From a virus, in IMG/VR virus record IMGVR_UViG_3300036766_000289, positions 1 through 38,964 of that record: a stretch of 38,964 nt of DNA, one strand, 5' to 3'. Position 1 is the first letter of the stretch. The number at the start of each line of letters is the position of its first letter. This document shows, piece by piece, positions 3,891-38,964 of this stretch. The notes under the pieces were generated by a model. That model saw nothing but the letters and a program-made list of their open reading frames with translations, did no database searches and was not told the origin of the DNA. Position numbers and translations under genes: made by a program.

Positions 3891-4031
3891 ATGCCGCTAG
3901 ATAAATCTAAGTCAAAAGCTGCTGTCAGCAAAAACATCAAGACAGAAATGGAACATGGGAAACCTCAGAAACAGGCTATTGCCATAGCCATGAGCGTTGC
4001 CGGCAAATCAAAGAAGAAAAAGGGCCGCTAA
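3891..4031 (+). CDS. Small basic phage protein, 46 aa
   Basis: A 46-residue, Lys-rich frame with an AGGAG site five bases before the ATG. The core ([17 protein letters not shown]) matches short conserved phage proteins with an E-M-x-x-G-K-P-x-K-Q-A-x-A-I-A signature, of the DUF6496 type. The function of that family is not known. The final codons and stop form the left arm of the terminator hairpin, so the gene closes the fibre operon. Confidence 0.75.
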
Positions 4032-4051
4032 TCACTTAGCAGCCCTTTTTT
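4022..4051. terminator. Bidirectional rho-independent terminator
   Basis: GGGCCGCTAA and TTAGCAGCCC pair around a TCAC loop, with one mismatch, and are followed by six T. Read on the minus strand, the same hairpin is followed by TTTTTCTTCTTT. It lies between convergent genes (plus fibre operon, minus 4051-4329), so it probably stops transcription from both sides. Confidence 0.85.
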
Positions 4052-4329
4052 CAAGGCGACGTGCGATAAGGGTCATATTGTATATATCGATCTTCCCTAG
4101 TTTCTAGGAAGTCGAAAAATGTTTTGGCAAGCTCCCAGTCTAACGTGTGAATGACATAGTAGCTACTTTCGTCATCCTCATGATCATTCCTCAAGATCTG
4201 CGCTGTATAGTACCCATTGCTTGAGCCATAGAGTACTATTCGAACATTGCTTGAGACGATCTTTTTCTCATCACACAGAGTAAGCTCCTCATCATAATTG
4301 AATCGGAACTCCTCTGGGATATCACTCAT
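4051..4329 (-). CDS. Hypothetical acidic protein, 92 aa
   Basis: I take the start at MSDIPEEF because that ATG overlaps the TGA of the upstream gene (ATGAGTGA), which implies coupling. A longer frame upstream would lie wholly inside the neighbour. The protein is acidic, with a central Y-G-S-S-N-G-Y-Y-T-A segment and an amphipathic L-A-K-T-F-F-D-F-L-E helix. I recognise no family. It is probably co-expressed with the secreted protein at 4322-4759. Confidence 0.6.
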   Translation of the reverse strand: MSDIPEEFRFNYDEELTLCDEKKIVSSNVRIVLYGSSNGYYTAQILRNDHEDDESSYYVIHTLDWELAKTFFDFLETREDRYIQYDPYRTSP

Positions 4330-4759
4330 CAATATCGGGCTCAGGCTGACCATCGACGTTATCAACACAGGGACTGCTATCATCTAAAACCTCTGGTATT
4401 TCTTTGACCTCTACGGTCTTTTTTTCTTTAGGGATTTTGAACTTATACCCCTTCAGTGGCTCCAAGTATGCTTTTTTGTGCCATTTAATCCAAGGGAAAT
4501 ATTTCTTTGTGAAATCATATTTCAGATGGATATAGCTCAAAACATGCTCCCCATCAGCGCTTAAACGGGCTTTGTAGGCCACATAATGCTGCGAGGGGAA
4601 TAGCAGACACAAAACGATTCTCCGATTGGGATGGATCATTACCTGCTCAACGATTGCATGCTCGGCGTCAATCACCTTGGCTAGGTCAGTCCTCCAACCT
4701 TCCCCTCCGTGGGCTTGTAGGGTGCACAATAGGGCTAGAGCGAAGAAAAATGTTCTCAT
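4322..4759 (-). CDS. Secreted hypothetical protein, 145 aa
   Basis: The ATG at 4759 is preceded by a perfect AGGAGG, which decides this start over an in-frame ATG seven codons upstream. The first 16 residues (MRTFFFALALLCTLQA) form a signal peptide. The mature part has a Y-V-A-Y-K-A-R-L strand and a basic W-I-K-W-H-K-K region, with a C-terminal acidic tail. No catalytic motif is visible. A role in the envelope during infection or lysis is possible but not shown. Confidence 0.65.
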   Translation of the reverse strand: MRTFFFALALLCTLQAHGGEGWRTDLAKVIDAEHAIVEQVMIHPNRRIVLCLLFPSQHYVAYKARLSADGEHVLSYIHLKYDFTKKYFPWIKWHKKAYLEPLKGYKFKIPKEKKTVEVKEIPEVLDDSSPCVDNVDGQPEPDIDE

Positions 4760-9188: not shown

Positions 9189-9442
9189 TATTCTATTTTT
9201 TTCTCCAAGACATCCACAAATCGTTTAAGAGTAAGCTTATCGAGCTCCTTTCTTCCTTCCATTAGTTCCTTTTCCAGTTCTTCCGGTTTCATAGAACAAA
9301 GAGCTTGTAGGTGAGCGTCGATCACATTTATGATCAGCTTCTCTATAAGACCATGTAATTCTTTTTTGCTATTTCTTGCACCATAAAAATCTTCAATCAT
9401 GAACGAAGATATTTCCTTGATCTCTTTTTTGCTAAATTGCAT
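9188..9442 (-). CDS. Hypothetical helical protein, 84 aa
   Basis: Starts inside the end of the replication gene, with GAGGAAG as ribosome site. Mostly amphipathic helix with Lys/Glu repeats (M-K-P-E-E-L-E-K-E-L-M-E-G-R-K-E-L). No recognisable domain. Part of the tightly overlapping replication operon. Confidence 0.65.
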   Translation of the reverse strand: MQFSKKEIKEISSFMIEDFYGARNSKKELHGLIEKLIINVIDAHLQALCSMKPEELEKELMEGRKELDKLTLKRFVDVLEKKIE

Positions 9443-10121
9443 AGACTTCCTCTTGTTTTTCTTGTTTAAATATCCACTTTTTCATCTTCCAGGTGAAGAT
9501 CTTACACCATGTGACCATATCTTTGATAGGTTTTCCTTGTTTTGCCTGCTCTAGAGCATACCAGCGCAGGTCTTCGATGATTTCCTGTTGGCCGACTTCA
9601 GGCAAAAGTTTGAGCTGCCAGCCATAATTATCGTAATCAAAAACCTGCATGAAGGGCTGCTTGAGCATATGCGGAAGATCTTCGAAACTCAATGGCTGTT
9701 CTTGTTTTCTTTTTTCTGTAGATTTAGGTACATCCGACGTAGTCGGCTTATGTACATGTATATCAATATCAGGAACTCCATTAGCTAGTCGGCAATTTGA
9801 TCGGCAATTTCCCTCTATGGGACGTTTTGCCTGGTAGATCTTTTTCAAATCGATATTACGCATTTCTTCGTCGAAAAAGTATACGTTTGATTTGCTTCCG
9901 CGATTCATCCATCCAATTAGACCGAGCGTCCGAAAACAGGTGAGGGCATTATGAACTTGTCTAACAGAGCATTTTGCATTGAAGGCTATTCGATCTTTGG
10001 ACGGAAAAACCTTATCGCAGCTCCGAAACATCCATATTAGATATTCATAAACTCGTCGGTAGATTTTTGAGAAATTCCACCAAGCATCTTGTAGGATATG
10101 TAGGAAGGGGATTTTTATCAC
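9432..10121 (-). CDS. Winged-helix replication protein, 229 aa
   Basis: The first 80 residues form a winged helix: Y-E-Y-L-I-W-M-F then F-P-S-K-D-R-I-A-F-N-A-K-C-S-V-R-Q-V-H-N-A-L and L-G-L-I-G-W-M-N-R-G-S-K-S-N-V-Y-F, typical of phage replication initiators that bind the origin. A variable linker (residues 95-140) leads to a helical C-terminal part that may bind the helicase. The start is GTG at 10121; an in-frame stop lies seven codons upstream and the next ATG is inside the domain. An out-of-frame ATG (25 codons) overlaps the start. This is the only replication gene I can identify. Confidence 0.65.
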   Translation of the reverse strand: MIKIPFLHILQDAWWNFSKIYRRVYEYLIWMFRSCDKVFPSKDRIAFNAKCSVRQVHNALTCFRTLGLIGWMNRGSKSNVYFFDEEMRNIDLKKIYQAKRPIEGNCRSNCRLANGVPDIDIHVHKPTTSDVPKSTEKRKQEQPLSFEDLPHMLKQPFMQVFDYDNYGWQLKLLPEVGQQEIIEDLRWYALEQAKQGKPIKDMVTWCKIFTWKMKKWIFKQEKQEEVYAI

Positions 10122-10145
10122 GCATATACTTCTTTCGGGTCAAGC

Positions 10146-10174
10146 TTGATTTTTTCTTGCGGAGAATGTACGAT
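10146..10174 (+). promoter_or_regulatory. Plus-strand promoter candidate in the replication leader
   Basis: TTGATT at 10146-10151 and TACGAT at 10169-10174 are separated by exactly 17 bases, each matching four of six consensus positions. The motif TTGCGGAGAAT lies in the spacer and recurs at two other early control regions. It faces away from the replication gene and towards the stem-loops and terminator described next. Confidence 0.45.
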
Positions 10175-10180
10175 TAAGAT

Positions 10181-10316
10181 AAGCTCTTTCTCATAGCGCT
10201 TCTCGCGCTCCTGACTTTGTCAAGCTTTGGTCGGTTTATCCAAAGTCAGAATGTCCCTAATGTGACAGTCTAACTGTTAAAGGTCAACCGAAAGGTTGGC
10301 CTTTACCTTTTTATAC
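10181..10316 (+). ncRNA. Candidate structured small RNA antisense to the replication leader
   Basis: About 135 bases with four stem-loops: AGCGC/GCGCT (10195-10209), a perfect nine-pair stem CTGACTTTG/CAAAGTCAG (10211-10249, 21-base loop), ACAGT/ACTGT (10265-10277) and a 12-pair hairpin with GAAA loop (10278-10305). The last is followed by CCTTTTT. The promoter at 10146 would start it. It lies opposite the 5' leader of the winged-helix replication gene, like antisense regulators of replication. The same folds could form in the minus-strand leader or mark an origin. Confidence 0.5.
10278..10312 (+). terminator. Strong hairpin terminator with GAAA tetraloop
   Basis: TAAAGGTCAACC pairs with GGTTGGCCTTTA over 12 positions (one G-T) around GAAA, followed by CCTTTTT on the plus strand. 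On the minus strand it is not followed by a T run, so it points to a plus-strand transcript. Confidence 0.7.
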
Positions 10317-10338
10317 TAAGCTACTTAGGAACCTAAGT
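10316..10338. repeat. Palindromic CTAAG/CTTAG half-sites
   Basis: ACTTAGG and CCTAAGT form an inverted repeat around AA at 10323-10338, and a further CTAAG lies at 10316-10320. Three half-sites at 8-9 base spacing upstream of a replication gene suggest a protein-binding site, either origin iterons or an operator. Confidence 0.45.
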
Positions 10339-10432
10339 CTTTACCGCTCAAACTCTTGAACCCAAGAAAAAAAGTTTTCCCTTGCATCAATGTTTCCTCC
10401 CTGATAAGGTCCGAATTGAGTAATTTTTTCAT
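10325..10432 (-). CDS. Possible 35-aa leader peptide
   Basis: An ATG with AAGGA five bases upstream opens a 35-codon frame beginning M-K-K-L-L-N-S-D-L and ending in the palindrome at 10323-10338. It lies in the otherwise gene-free leader before the replication gene. A second internal ATG has its own GGGAGG. It may be a leader peptide or chance; no homologue is known to me. Confidence 0.3.
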   Translation of the reverse strand: MKKLLNSDLIREETLMQGKTFFLGFKSLSGKDLGS

Positions 10433-10455
10433 GAACATCCTTGGTTTATCGGGTA

Positions 10456-10488
10456 AGGGGAGGACTAAAAATCCTCCCCTCACTTTTT
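10456..10488. terminator. Nine-pair hairpin, terminator-like on plus
   Basis: AGGGGAGGA and TCCTCCCCT pair around CTAAAAA and are followed on plus by CACTTTTT. It sits eight bases after the stop of the minus gene 10488-10715, so it may also end that part of the minus operon, though no T run follows on minus. Confidence 0.55.
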
Positions 10489-10715
10489 CAGTAGTCGTAA
10501 CGACTATGAAACCAATCCCTCATATAGTCTAGGAGGCGTTTTTTCTCTTCAGGACAAAGCCTTGTTGAGTCCTTATCGAGAATATCCTTTTCCCAGCTCT
10601 CATAGTCATGTGGGTGCTTTTCGTAGTCCTCGATAATCTGCTCGAAGAGTACGTCACGACCCGAAACATAGGGTTCACACCAATTATCACCTGTTGCCAA
10701 TGCGTCGATACCCAT
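10488..10715 (-). CDS. Hypothetical protein, 75 aa
   Basis: I take the start at MGIDALATGDNW, with GGAGG nine bases upstream. An alternative ATG seven codons earlier (10736) is preceded by GAGGAG, but its extra residues are encoded by a stretch that already codes acidic residues in the upstream gene. The product is acidic with W-C-E-P and a C-terminal M-R-D-W-F-H-S-R-Y. It overlaps the upstream gene by 29 bases. No family recognised. Confidence 0.6.
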   Translation of the reverse strand: MGIDALATGDNWCEPYVSGRDVLFEQIIEDYEKHPHDYESWEKDILDKDSTRLCPEEKKRLLDYMRDWFHSRYDY

Positions 10716-10851
10716 TTTCTTCTTCCTCCAAATCATACATACGCTCCTCGGCCATATAAATCGCGTTGTTTGTCTCTGTCAATGCAGCCTCAAGCGCATT
10801 TTGTATGCGCTTGAGGTCTTGAACCTGGTTGTAAAGCATTCCAGGAGTCAT
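10687..10851 (-). CDS. Small coiled-coil protein, 54 aa
   Basis: Under 60 codons, but it has a perfect AGGAGGT five to six bases before the ATG, and that ATG overlaps the upstream TGA (ATGA). Helical, with V-Q-D-L-K-R-I-Q-N-A-L-E-A-A-L heptad spacing and an acidic E-E-E-E run. Function unknown. Confidence 0.65.
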   Translation of the reverse strand: MTPGMLYNQVQDLKRIQNALEAALTETNNAIYMAEERMYDLEEEENGYRRIGNR

Positions 10852-11019: not shown

Positions 11020-11220
11020 CTACAACCATCCTTTGCTGCCGCCAGTCCATCCATAAGTGCCCTTATGTTCAACATCTCCTTTTACGCGATTGAACCTATA
11101 GGCCACCGATCGATACTTACCTTCGCCACATTCAATGGCTTGGTATTGTGGCACCGCCATCGGGATGAGAATGTACAACATCACGAACACCACTAGGGCT
11201 TTTAAGATAAATTCTTTCAT
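11020..11220 (-). CDS. Membrane-anchored small protein, 66 aa
   Basis: Residues 3-24 (F-I-L-K-A-L-V-V-F-V-M-L-Y-I-L-I-P-M) are a signal anchor. The rest is basic and Gly-rich with W-T-G-G-S-K-G-W at the end. GGAGG sits five bases before the ATG at 11220, within an ATGGAGG element also found before other genes here. First gene of the minus replication operon. Confidence 0.65.
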   Translation of the reverse strand: MKEFILKALVVFVMLYILIPMAVPQYQAIECGEGKYRSVAYRFNRVKGDVEHKGTYGWTGGSKGWL

Positions 11221-11264
11221 TTGGTCCTCCATGTTTATTTTCGTTCCTAACGCTCCGCTACAAC

Positions 11265-11288
11265 CTGCCGGCCTTGGTGAGCCGGTCA
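11265..11288. repeat. Leader stem-loop of the minus operon
   Basis: CCTTGGTGA and TCACCAGG pair around GCCGG with one bulged T. It lies between the promoter region and the first gene of the minus operon, so it would form in the 5' leader RNA. Purpose unknown; a protein-binding or antitermination site is conceivable. Confidence 0.4.
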
Positions 11289-11304
11289 CCAGGGAGACTG
11301 GCGC

Positions 11305-11345
11305 GTTATAACCATAGCATAGCACGGTGCTATTATATTCCGCAA
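11305..11345 (-). promoter_or_regulatory. Promoter and operator of the minus replication operon
   Basis: On the minus strand TTGCGG (11345-11340) is followed after 18 bases by TATGCT, and TATAAT and TATAAC also occur nearby. A palindrome TAGCAC-G-GTGCTA (11320-11332) lies within the spacer, a good operator position. TATTAT on plus (11331-11336) could serve the divergent gene at 11389. Confidence 0.45.
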
Positions 11346-11778: not shown

Positions 11779-11835
11779 GAGTGCTAAGTTTTTTTGGCAG
11801 TATGCCGGAATTTCCGGCTAACTGATTTAGCACTC
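11779..11835. ncRNA. Nested stem-loop, candidate structured RNA
   Basis: A perfect nine-pair outer stem (GAGTGCTAA at 11779-11787 with TTAGCACTC at 11827-11835) encloses a second perfect hairpin, GCCGGAA and TTCCGGC around one T (11804-11818). An alternative GGCA/TGCC pairing is possible. It begins four bases after the stop of 11571-11774. No T run follows, so it is not a standard terminator. Candidate RNA element or a protein-bound cruciform. Confidence 0.5.
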
Positions 11836-14562: not shown

Positions 14563-14634
14563 GCTGGCATAGCTCAATGGTGGAGCACTCGCCTTGTAAG
14601 CGATAGGTTGTGGGTTCAAGTCCTACTGCCAGCA
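14563..14634 (+). tRNA. tRNA-Thr(UGU)
   Basis: Perfect seven-pair acceptor stem (GCTGGCA/TGCCAGC) with discriminator A, D arm GCTC...GAGC, anticodon loop CTTGTAA giving UGU, five-base variable loop, and T arm GTGGG-TTCAAGT-CCTAC. The outermost anticodon-stem pair (C-T) is mismatched. No CCA is encoded. It reads ACA, a frequent codon in the Thr-rich fibre genes of this phage, so a supply role during late expression is plausible. Confidence 0.93.
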
Positions 14635-16223: not shown

Positions 16224-16237
16224 GCTCGAGGTCATGA

Positions 16238-16693
16238 ATGACAGAGGTGAAAAATACACACGGTGGATTTAGAGAGGGATCAGGTCGTCCTATCAAACCT
16301 ATTGATTGGGCTCGTGTAGATTTTAATCTGATGGCAGGCTCTACTCAAGAAGAAGTAGCGGCCGAATTAGGAATTCATAGACACACATTAAGTGCAAGAT
16401 TCTATGAAGAATTTGATCTTGATTATTCGACTTATTCGACACAAAAAGCACAGGCAGGCGAGCTGCATATTCGGGTAGCACAGTTCCAAAAAGCTTTGAA
16501 CAATAATGCCAAGGGAAATACCCAAATGCTGATTTGGTTGGGCAAGGTTCGTCTTGGTCAAAAAGAACCAGAAGCTATGTCGGGTGCGGTTCCCGAACAA
16601 GTTAATCTAGACAAAGATCATCGTCTCATGCAACTTGAGCACGAACTTGCTGTATTAAAAGGAATGAATGCCAACAAGCCCGAAACAGAATGA
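16238..16693 (+). CDS. terS: Terminase small subunit, 151 aa
   Basis: N terminus G-G-F-R-E-G-S-G-R-P, then a helix-turn-helix (S-T-Q-E-E-V-A-A-E-L-G-I-H-R-H-T-L at 35-51), a helical middle and a coiled C terminus. This matches small terminases that recognise packaging sites and form a ring. GAGG lies six bases before the ATG. Its 3' end overlaps the large subunit by 26 bases. Confidence 0.85.
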   Translation: MTEVKNTHGGFREGSGRPIKPIDWARVDFNLMAGSTQEEVAAELGIHRHTLSARFYEEFDLDYSTYSTQKAQAGELHIRVAQFQKALNNNAKGNTQMLIWLGKVRLGQKEPEAMSGAVPEQVNLDKDHRLMQLEHELAVLKGMNANKPETE

Positions 16694-21365: not shown

Positions 21366-22091
21366 AATCCTGAGCCTCAAGTTACCCAAGAAGCGCAAAT
21401 TGCGCCAGCACAAAATGATACAGCCGCAACGGCGGTTGCTACGCCATCCGTAGAAACGGTGGAGACAGATAAAGATATCAACTGGAAAAAATTTCGTGAA
21501 CAACGTGAGCTTGATAGGAAGGCACGAGAGGCTGCGGAGAAGATGGCGGCAGAAGAGAGAGCGAGAAGCGAAGCGACGATCGCTGCGATGAATAGTTTAT
21601 TAAGCAAGAATCAGCCTCCACAACAAGCTTACGAGCAGGTTGACGAGTCACAAGATGAATTTATTTCCAAACGAGTTGATGCGATATTAGCTAAAAAAGA
21701 GGCTCAAGCAGCGCGTGAAAGGGCTGAAAGAGATATAAAAGAACTCCCAGAGCGTCTACAAGCCAATCTTCCCGATTTTCATCAAGTGTGTAAGTCGGAC
21801 AATCTTGACTATCTCGAGTATCATTATCCTGAAGTGGCTGTACCTTTCAAACATATGGTAGAGGGCTATGAGAAGTGGCAAGCCATCTATCGAGCAGTCA
21901 AGCGATTTGTTCCTAATACGGATGTCCAAAAAGAAATACGCAAAGCTGATCTCAACTCTCAGAAGCCTCAATCCATGTCCAGCCCTGGCACCTCACAAGC
22001 CACTAACAACACGCCTGCTGTTAAGCTTGATGAGGGTAAGAGGGCTGCCAACTGGGCTAGGATGCAGAAAGTGATGAATCAATTGACTTAG
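21363..22091 (+). CDS. Scaffolding protein, 242 aa
   Basis: Position between portal and capsid and composition fit: Gln/Ala-rich disordered start, a long charged helix (R-E-Q-R-E-L-D-R-K-A-R-E-A-A-E-K), a second helical part (K-K-E-A-Q-A-A-R-E-R-A-E-R) and a basic C terminus (E-G-K-R-A-A-N-W-A-R-M-Q-K-V) that would bind coat protein. Such proteins guide procapsid assembly and then leave. Confidence 0.75.
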   Translation: MNPEPQVTQEAQIAPAQNDTAATAVATPSVETVETDKDINWKKFREQRELDRKAREAAEKMAAEERARSEATIAAMNSLLSKNQPPQQAYEQVDESQDEFISKRVDAILAKKEAQAARERAERDIKELPERLQANLPDFHQVCKSDNLDYLEYHYPEVAVPFKHMVEGYEKWQAIYRAVKRFVPNTDVQKEIRKADLNSQKPQSMSSPGTSQATNNTPAVKLDEGKRAANWARMQKVMNQLT

Positions 22092-33722: not shown

Positions 33723-36386
33723 ATGCCATACAATTCAAATGACCCTCTAGGGTACCTGGGGATCAATGAATCCCAACAACCAGACTTTTTAGTCGCTCAA
33801 AGAGCGCCTACAACTAACGATCTTCAACCTCCAGGAACTCGTTGGCAAGATGCTAGCGCTTCAGGAAAGCCGATTTATGAAACGGTTGGAGCGGGTGTAT
33901 GGGATCTTGGCGGAAACGTGGCTGCTACTACTACCACAGCTGGTATTATTCGTATAGCTACTGTCGCGGAAGCGGCCGCAGGTATTCTGACAACGGTTGC
34001 AGTTAACCCAGCTGCTTTAGCTGCTCTCACACTAGCTGGAGCCGTAGAAACCTCCACAACAAATGAAGGTATCGTAAAGCTCTCTACCAACGCACAAGCG
34101 GTTGCAGGAACGGCTGGTGTGGCCGGTGGTAATCAATTAGCTGTTCAGCCATCGAACTTAGCCTCAGTATTTGCTGCTGCTCCAGCAATTGGAGGCACAA
34201 CCCCAGCGGCAGCCGTGTTTACAACACTAGGCTTTACTACCGCTACAGGTACAGCTGGGGGCACATGGGCCTCAGGTGGTACAGCAATCAGTATTGGTGC
34301 CGATGCTACAACAGACACGATTAACATCGGTACGGGAGCTGCCGCTAGAACGATTCATATTGGCGATTCGACACAAGCTAATCTCGTTACGGTTGGATCT
34401 GCTACAGGAGCTGCTGCGTTGACACTTAAAGCCGGGACAGGAAACTTTGTTTTCACTACAGGTACCTCGACAACATTTACTGTTGGCGCTGCTACCACGA
34501 CGGGAACATGGGCATTAGGCGGAACAGCTCAAACAGGCACGATCACCCTAGGTAGCTCGTCAGGGACGAATATCATTGCGATTGGTGATGGTGCAGGTCA
34601 AACGACCGTCAATATCTCTAACAGCAATACAGCCGGTGCCGTCAATGTAGGTGCTGCTTTAACGGGCGGTACGATCACAATCGGCGGTACAGCACAGACG
34701 GGAACTATGACTCTAGGTAGTTCGTCAGGCACTAATACGATGATTATCGCTGGTGGTGCCGGTATCACGACACTTCAGATTGCTAATGCTCAAGTAGGTG
34801 GTAGCGTCGCAGTAGGCGCAGGCATGACTACGGGAACGATCACAATCGGTGGTACCGCTCACAATAGTGCTACAGCCATTACACTCGGTTCATCTTCAGC
34901 TGCTTCGACTGTGATTATCCAAGGTGGGGCCGGTGCCTCAACTACCCTAATTGCCGGTGGAACCGCTGGAGCTAACGTTACCAGCATAAACAACGGTGCG
35001 ACAGCTGCTAACTCAACTGTAAACGTTCTCTCAGGTGCAGCATCAGCCGGAACACATGCCGTTAATATCTTCACTGGTAATGCTTCAGGCGGTACACAGA
35101 CGTTTAACCTAGCCACAGGCACTAATGCTGTAGCTATCAACATCGGTACGGGTACTACAGGGGTTAAGACGATTGCAATCGGCGGTACAGCCGCTAACGT
35201 CATCACTATCGGTAACACCCAGACAACAGGGTCCGTAGCTGTAGGTAATGCTCTTACCTCGGGAACGATCACCTTAGGCGGTACAGCAGGTACAGGATTG
35301 ATCACAATCGGGGGTGCTACTAACGCCACTGGTCAGACAGTCAGCATCAATAGCGGTGCTTCCATTGCCGGAACAAACATTGTTTCGATCCTTGCTGGAG
35401 CTACTCCTGCTGCAAGTCAGACGTTCAACCTGATGACAGGTGTCGGATCTGCTGGTACATACGCTGTCAATATCTTGACAGGTGCTTCGACAGGTACCAC
35501 ACAGACAGTTGCAGTTGGTACAGGATCAGCTAGAACCGACATTACACTAGGTGGTACCGGTGCTAACGTATTTGCAATCAACAACACGACCACAACGGGA
35601 ACTGTTGCTGTTGGTAACGCAATGACGACGGGTACGATCGCCTTAGGTGGAGCTTCTCAAACTGGTCTGATTACGATTGGTAAGTCGACTCTCGGTCAAA
35701 CGATTGGGATTAACAACGCTGCCTCAAACACCGTGGCAAACATTGTTTCTATCCTCAATGGTGCGACACCTGGCGCTGATAACACCCTGAATATCATGAA
35801 TGGTGCAGGTACAGCCGGTACACAAACGATCAATATGTTGGCTTCAGGTGCTACTAGAGCCGGTGCAGTCAATATCGCTACAGGTATCGCAGCTCATGCT
35901 GTGACGATCGGTCAGGTTACAACAACAGTAGCTGTCAACGGTCCTACAACCCTCACGCTGGCCTCTGGTGCAGCTACAGGCTTGACCGTTACTACAGCAG
36001 CCGGATCTGGAACCGCTTCATCGTTCACCTCAAGCGCTGTAACGGTCCCAGACATACTCTCAGCAGTGGGCGGTATCAAAGTAACGCCTACAGCAGTAGC
36101 AGCAGGAGCCACTCCTCAGACATGCAACAACAGACATGGTCAAGTGATCTTTAATACCGTTAGCATAGCTGCGGGGGCTGTTCAGGCGTTTGTAATCGCT
36201 AACAGCACAATCACAGGGGTAAACACTCAGATCATGTACTCTATGTATGGTGCTACAACAGGATCTGCGCCCGTTATCCAATCTGTTGCGAATGCCGCAG
36301 GACAATCAACGATCACTGTGATGAACGGCACAGGATTGACGACAACCACAGCAAACATCACATTTGTTTACTGGGTGATGAATTAA
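33723..36386 (+). CDS. Long repetitive tail fibre, 887 aa
   Basis: The largest gene. N terminus D-P-L-G-Y-L-G-I-N, then W-D-L-G-G-N-V-A and fibre-type blocks, then over 600 residues of Gly/Thr/Ala repeats with the core T-I-T-I-G-G-T-A-x-T-G and L-G-S-S-S-G-T-N, probably a triple beta-helix shaft. The last 100 residues (C-N-N-R-H-G-Q-V-I-F) form a distinct beta domain. AGGAGCAAT precedes the ATG. Likely the main fibre or tailspike shaft. Confidence 0.8.
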   Translation: MPYNSNDPLGYLGINESQQPDFLVAQRAPTTNDLQPPGTRWQDASASGKPIYETVGAGVWDLGGNVAATTTTAGIIRIATVAEAAAGILTTVAVNPAALAALTLAGAVETSTTNEGIVKLSTNAQAVAGTAGVAGGNQLAVQPSNLASVFAAAPAIGGTTPAAAVFTTLGFTTATGTAGGTWASGGTAISIGADATTDTINIGTGAAARTIHIGDSTQANLVTVGSATGAAALTLKAGTGNFVFTTGTSTTFTVGAATTTGTWALGGTAQTGTITLGSSSGTNIIAIGDGAGQTTVNISNSNTAGAVNVGAALTGGTITIGGTAQTGTMTLGSSSGTNTMIIAGGAGITTLQIANAQVGGSVAVGAGMTTGTITIGGTAHNSATAITLGSSSAASTVIIQGGAGASTTLIAGGTAGANVTSINNGATAANSTVNVLSGAASAGTHAVNIFTGNASGGTQTFNLATGTNAVAINIGTGTTGVKTIAIGGTAANVITIGNTQTTGSVAVGNALTSGTITLGGTAGTGLITIGGATNATGQTVSINSGASIAGTNIVSILAGATPAASQTFNLMTGVGSAGTYAVNILTGASTGTTQTVAVGTGSARTDITLGGTGANVFAINNTTTTGTVAVGNAMTTGTIALGGASQTGLITIGKSTLGQTIGINNAASNTVANIVSILNGATPGADNTLNIMNGAGTAGTQTINMLASGATRAGAVNIATGIAAHAVTIGQVTTTVAVNGPTTLTLASGAATGLTVTTAAGSGTASSFTSSAVTVPDILSAVGGIKVTPTAVAAGATPQTCNNRHGQVIFNTVSIAAGAVQAFVIANSTITGVNTQIMYSMYGATTGSAPVIQSVANAAGQSTITVMNGTGLTTTTANITFVYWVMN

Positions 36387-38471: not shown

Positions 38472-38964
38472 ATGACAGAAGCCAATAGTATAAATGCACA
38501 AACCACAGGGATAGTCGGAAATACAGGTACTGCATTTACAGGATCTACAACCATTCAATATGATGTCCTTATTGGTGGCTCTACCTCTAGCACCATCGAT
38601 AATGTTACAAATGGAACTACTGGACAAGTTTTAACGGCCAATACCGGTGCAGCTCCTACGTGGCAAGCGGCATCATCTGGAGGAACTATTACACAAACAA
38701 CATTTACATCAAGTGGTACTTGGACCAAAGCCGCAGGGGTAACTCAAGTAGAAATTATTATCTGGTGCGGTGGTATGGGTGGAGCCTCAGGCAGACGTGA
38801 TTCCAGCACTAATGCCGGTGGTGGAGGGGGCGGAGGCGGGGGCGGAGGATTGGTTTGGTTTTTTCCCGCTTCATATTTTGGCGCAACTACTACAATCACT
38901 ATAGGAAATGGTGGAGCTGGTGGTGTTGCTCAAACAGTCAACGCAACAGATGGTAATGCTGGAA
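38472..38964 (+). CDS. Glycine-rich tail fibre/adhesin, N-terminal part (continues at base 1)
   Basis: AGGATTAAT before the ATG. The first 60 residues (A-N-S-I-N-A-Q-T-T-G-I-V-G-N-T-G-T-A-F-T) are paralogous to the N terminus of the 915-2468 fibre. F-T-S-S-G-T-W-T-K then leads into Gly runs. The reading frame is open to the end of the window and continues in frame at base 1, giving 365 residues. Bases 38838-38964 duplicate 1-127. Confidence 0.78.
   Translation, partial: MTEANSINAQTTGIVGNTGTAFTGSTTIQYDVLIGGSTSSTIDNVTNGTTGQVLTANTGAAPTWQAASSGGTITQTTFTSSGTWTKAAGVTQVEIIIWCGGMGGASGRRDSSTNAGGGGGGGGGGGLVWFFPASYFGATTTITIGNGGAGGVAQTVNATDGNAG
38838..38964. repeat. Exact 127-bp copy of the window start
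   Basis: Identical to bases 1-127. The length 127 equals a common largest assembler k-mer, which points to an overlap left when a circular contig was written out linearly, rather than a physical terminal repeat. It implies a circular map of 38,837 bp. Confidence 0.9.

Follow-up and report, generated by a model that had tools for sequence, protein, structure and literature searches.

In a gap beside its probable replication initiator gene, on the opposite strand, a phage known only from metagenomes appears to carry two predicted small RNA genes, the first well supported and the second likely. They are kept in a related phage whose initiator gene is unrelated. We analysed the complete 38,964-base IMG/VR virus record IMGVR_UViG_3300036766_000289 (the window), and our preferred reading, to which we assign a probability of about 0.55, is that this gap contains one, and probably two, convergent antisense units that would reduce the early leftward transcription reaching the initiator gene and the origin.

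Between about 4,050 and 11,325 the genes lie mostly on the minus strand, RecE-like and Erf-like genes for recombination among them; outside this block they are mostly on the plus strand, including those for the methyltransferase and terminase. The gap (10122-10487, 366 nt) falls inside the minus block, between two minus-strand genes. No open reading frame of at least 60 amino acids lies wholly inside it, and its distal part has short ones, for example MKKLL.... The first-pass annotation had described a gap of this size and position, with hairpins and two plus-oriented terminators, and all of these were found, the second terminator at 10456-10480. The features on which the argument turns are as follows.

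9432..10121, minus: downstream gene, probable lambda-O-like replication initiator (weak profile matches)
9743..9810, plus: three iteron-like copies of TCGGCwwwT inside the initiator gene, a possible ori
10146..10174, plus: alternative RNA1 promoter, that of the first-pass annotation, TTGATT-N17-TACGAT, 8/12 consensus matches
10157..10185, plus: P1, proposed RNA1 promoter, -35 TTGCGG (10157-10162), N17, -10 TAAGCT (10180-10185)
~10192..10312, plus: RNA1 (proposed, ~121 nt), comprising hairpin 1, hairpin 2, linker and terminator
10278..10312, plus: RNA1 terminator, 12-pair stem at 10278-10305 (one pair U.G), GAAA loop, T5 at 10308-10312
10382..10410, plus: P2, proposed promoter ahead of the second terminator, TTGCAT-N17-TAAGGT
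10417..10488, plus: RNA2 (proposed, ~70 nt), closed by the second terminator (10456-10480), fold z -1.9
10488..10736, minus: upstream gene, in the same operon as the initiator; a 69% identical protein lies on the same side of the gap in the relative G001
11316..11345, minus: proposed promoter of the opposing leftward operon, TTGCGG-N18-TATGCT, overlapping an alternative, CTGAAA-N16-TATAAT

Structure, conservation and strand of the proposed RNA1

Two plus-strand hairpins, of five pairs (10195-10209) and of nine perfect pairs (10211-10249), precede the terminator of RNA1. Folded as RNA, the segment 10180-10316 reaches -41.8 kcal/mol, against -26.3 for shuffled sequences (z -4.7, 0/200 shuffles as good); when it is trimmed to 10192-10312 the z score is -5.1, again with none of 200 shuffles as good. 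No open reading frame of at least 20 amino acids occurs within 10192-10312 on either strand. Both terminators of the gap are among the strongest compact ones in the window, and both are specific to the plus strand, the minus strand having no T-run. Across six records, antisense terminators this stable in gaps between same-strand genes were seen four times, compared with about 0.1 expected. Rfam gave no match to RNA1 at the gathering score, and a permissive scan brought up nothing close to that score; blastn against phage records returned only short, terminator-like matches (E>=0.2). The 5' segment of RNA1 resembles 11202-11218, which lies where a gene begins whose G001 counterpart is unrelated.

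An exact search with a 24-mer from the terminator found a single relative, IMGVR_UViG_3300036766_001072 (G001), which is co-linear with the window over much of its genome. The gap aligns at 78% over 10150-10471 and includes two identical runs, of 42/42 nt (10157-10198) and, in the terminator, of 29/29 nt, with variable loops between them. In 20000 column shuffles, a test that assumes independent columns, the 42-nt run was reached 8 times and both runs never. The two phages share one RNA1 fold, with a z score of -5.2 in G001. The first-pass annotation had tied its reading to hairpins kept in relatives; the single relative available retains both main hairpins (1 and 2) as well as the terminator but does not preserve a small hairpin near 10263-10276. 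Its interpretation is supported in part, namely as to a self-contained plus-strand RNA gene lying antisense to the probable initiator's leader.

We tallied base pairs between the two sequences. Of 26 pairs, 25 are invariant and one, in hairpin 1, changes from C-G to U-G; no pair is altered on both sides, so that the comparison, being of only two genomes, shows no covariation. This change and the kept U.G pair of the terminator favour the plus strand, because on the minus strand both would be A-C mismatches. The same evidence bears on the idea that the hairpins work in the minus-strand initiator leader mRNA, as an attenuator or other leader structure. The minus strand of the window does fold well (z -4.2), but its fold differs between the phages (z -2.6 in G001) whereas the plus fold is the same; moreover, the missing T-run and the plus orientation of the promoter-like motifs argue against a minus-strand role, which we judge very unlikely. 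Still harder to credit is that the conservation reflects a minus-strand coding remnant or a short protein. G001 does have a stop-free stretch beside the initiator start, and the short distal frames could be counted in its favour, but the corresponding window frame has no start codon and is closed by stops on both sides, the 42 nt contain not one synonymous change, and there is no clear codon periodicity.

Proposed promoters and a probable second unit

The first-pass annotation had proposed a -35/-10 pair with 17-base spacing. That pair is present, at 10146-10174, and outscores P1 by consensus (8/12 versus 6/12), yet its -35, TTGATT, is not kept in G001, so it is probably the wrong promoter. 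P1, by contrast, is fully kept (TTGCGG-17-TAAGCT), the identical 42-nt block beginning at its TTGCGG, and from sequence it is probably the better candidate. Judged against the sigma-70 consensus the proposed promoters are weak matches, and a promoter scan at its set threshold called no promoter within 10122-10487. Two further -10-like hexamers, TACGAT and TAAGAT, overlap the P1 region and leave the start site uncertain by about 10 nt. Comparable hexamers, TTGCGG/TTGCAG-N18-TATGCT/TATAGT, also occur at the proposed leftward promoter in both phages.

RNA1 might instead be a trans-acting sRNA that regulates other phage or host mRNAs, as its compact stem-loops and Rho-independent terminator are typical of such molecules. 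In G001 its conserved 5' region pairs with the gene start at 34915 (-19.4 kcal/mol, 3/100 shuffles), but that gene's homologue in the window, which starts at 4759, reaches no more than -11.9, and no start region ranks at the top in both phages, nothing being common to the two. The loops and linker, which are the natural seeds, are the variable parts, and if P1 is right the conserved 5' block is mostly promoter rather than RNA. We therefore regard action in trans as unlikely and prefer the antisense reading.

A second unit probably follows the first. The pattern TTGCNN-N17-TAAGNT has two matches in the window, both on the plus strand and both inside the gap, namely P1 and P2; because the motif was defined after both had been seen, this evidence is positional, not statistical (0.4-0.5 matches expected per window; 7/100 shuffles with at least two). 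The P2 hexamers are kept in G001, with 6/17 spacer bases changed, and the 5' arm and loop of the second terminator are similar there, the contig being broken inside the hairpin. These signals suggest that the second terminator probably belongs to a P2 unit of its own, which would make two tandem antisense units. RNA2 overlies the start of a putative 12-35 amino acid frame, in which there is no clear coding signal. Neither RNA1 nor RNA2 overlaps the upstream gene. The contig end of G001 (L006), at 40769, lies in the loop of the second terminator's hairpin, and since both contig ends flank the same gap the genome of G001 is probably circular or circularly permuted.

Possible action on the initiator operon

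The downstream gene of the window probably encodes a lambda-O-like initiator, on the evidence of weak profile matches (PHROG replication initiation, E=0.0014; O-like, 0.006-0.009). Its counterpart in G001, with which it has no detectable similarity, matches initiator profiles clearly (1e-13; O-like 3e-6; range 1e-13 to 1e-5). Both genes carry short repeats, as lambda O carries its iterons; those of the unrelated G001 gene form three copies at 40075-40106, and in both genes the motifs were picked by eye, after looking.

How might the antisense units act? P1-RNA1-terminator and P2-RNA2-terminator would stand just upstream of the initiator gene and both read against the early leftward operon. We infer that polymerases from P1 and P2 would meet those from the leftward promoter, and that less transcription would then pass through the leader into the initiator and the origin, which probably lies within the initiator gene. 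The RNAs would also be fully complementary to the leader and could base-pair with it, which would probably make the leader a substrate for RNase III, with cleavage between the initiator and the genes upstream of it. The terminators would stop antisense transcription short of those upstream genes. The first-pass annotation had proposed control of the replication protein. Since RNA1 would begin some 70 nt upstream of the initiator's start codon, it cannot cover the ribosome-binding site, and direct blocking of that site by RNA1 is excluded; interference or leader cleavage is therefore our best guess. Nor was a minus-strand terminator found between RNA1 and the initiator gene, and attenuation as such therefore fits no better than a block on translation.

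The conserved DNA could, alternatively, be mainly a DNA-level element, an origin or operator, with P1 transcription opening or priming the origin. It adjoins an initiator-like gene with short internal repeats, the GC-skew minimum lies near 10-11 kb (confounded by gene orientation), and oop was once proposed as a primer of lambda replication. However, neither iteron-type repeats nor a conserved DnaA box was seen in the gap, conservation tracks the boundaries of promoter, stem and terminator, and priming by oop has been judged unlikely (PMC3985674). We think this explanation quite unlikely.

On our best reading the locus is a new antisense one that resembles OOP in layout; we do not claim common descent. 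The predicted promoter P1 (10157-10185), like that of OOP, stands beside the initiator start (10121) and reads away from it, against the early operon, and RNA1, like OOP, ends at an intrinsic terminator (10278-10312). The first-pass annotation had likewise seen an OOP-like position and an unrelated sequence, and the topology, together with the want of any Rfam or blastn relation, agrees. A lambda control recovered tO at 38605-38626, between cII and O, with the iterons inside O. In lambda, OOP is further marked by cleavage of its target mRNA that depends on RNase III, and by SOS control. Unlike the OOP RNA of lambda, which is 77 nt long, RNA1 would be about 121 nt with two extra stems, and a second promoter-terminator unit follows it. 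RNA1 also ends near 10312, about 175 nt short of the upstream gene's stop at 10488, and so does not overlap that gene, whereas OOP overlaps the cII 3' end by 52 bases (PMC5869508). In lambda, pO lowers convergent pR transcription and matters for replication; the OOP RNA, for its part, acts on cII and leaves O-P mRNA stability unaltered (PMC3985674). Because the replication effect is thus ascribed to pO activity and the RNA itself acts on cII, the target in our phage may not be the initiator.

Other systems share the arrangement in part. In Bacillus subtilis the antisense RNA ArrA lies over the 5' leader of the replication initiator gene dnaA and lowers dnaA (PMC12112137); unlike that chromosomal case, ours is a phage locus with probably two terminated units, and the likeness is one of layout. 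Plasmid copy-control RNAs of the pT181, pIP501 and pMV158 type are also antisense to a replication-gene leader, but RNA1 misses the initiator ribosome-binding site. As to the general trait of cis-antisense sRNAs, their own promoter and terminator opposite an mRNA, what we observe are predicted sequence signals and conservation in two genomes.

Should the antisense reading be true, the pO/OOP layout of lambda would have either recurred or persisted in distant phages, even though sequence similarity is absent and the initiator has been swapped. This would point to the antisense promoter as the feature under selection, more than to any one pairing of RNA and target, and an uncultivated phage would have a concrete promoter and terminator map. 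The broader proposal of a new family of phage antisense cassettes, in which two tandem units form a module independent of the initiator and act as an adjustable brake on origin transcription, is tentative and, in our estimate, doubtful.

Other phages and other noncoding elements

Further homologues of RNA1 were sought among genome contigs, phages and plasmids, and none was found. The 17-mer at its 5' end had 11 other matches, none with the remainder of RNA1, and a hairpin-2 pattern search gave one match, which was unrelated. Protein searches returned no homologues of the initiator, G001 only for the upstream gene and, apart from G001, distant relatives only for Erf and RecE. A covariance model run on the distant relatives produced weak matches only, the best of them (G004, E 0.066) in a coding frame. 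Three of these genomes each have one early-region antisense terminator, below -15 kcal/mol, in a gap between same-strand genes.

G002 4260-4287, antisense: terminator near Erf
G003 16226-16255, antisense: terminator near Erf
G004 21544-21571, antisense: terminator between a Cro-like gene and the gene run toward an O-like one (labels by eye)

They are at most analogues of the RNA1 terminator, and we do not claim homology; on the broader, tentative reading above, brakes of this sort could be widespread among these phages.

Several other noncoding elements were seen in the window. At 4020-4047, where plus and minus operons converge, there is a bidirectional terminator, and a tRNA-Thr (TGT) gene at 14563-14634 lies directly ahead of the methyltransferase gene. 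Within the 5' leader of the early operon on the minus strand, 46 nt (11257-11302) with short inverted repeats are identical in G001; this could be an antitermination (put/nut-like) leader, although its folds are no more stable than chance would give (z -0.7 and -1.9). Finally, a long hairpin, GAGTGCTAA...TTAGCACTC, occupies the conserved noncoding stretch 11779-11835 and has GCCGG as an inner stem (z -6.1; -3.2 in G001); more conserved blocks come after it, to about 11952.
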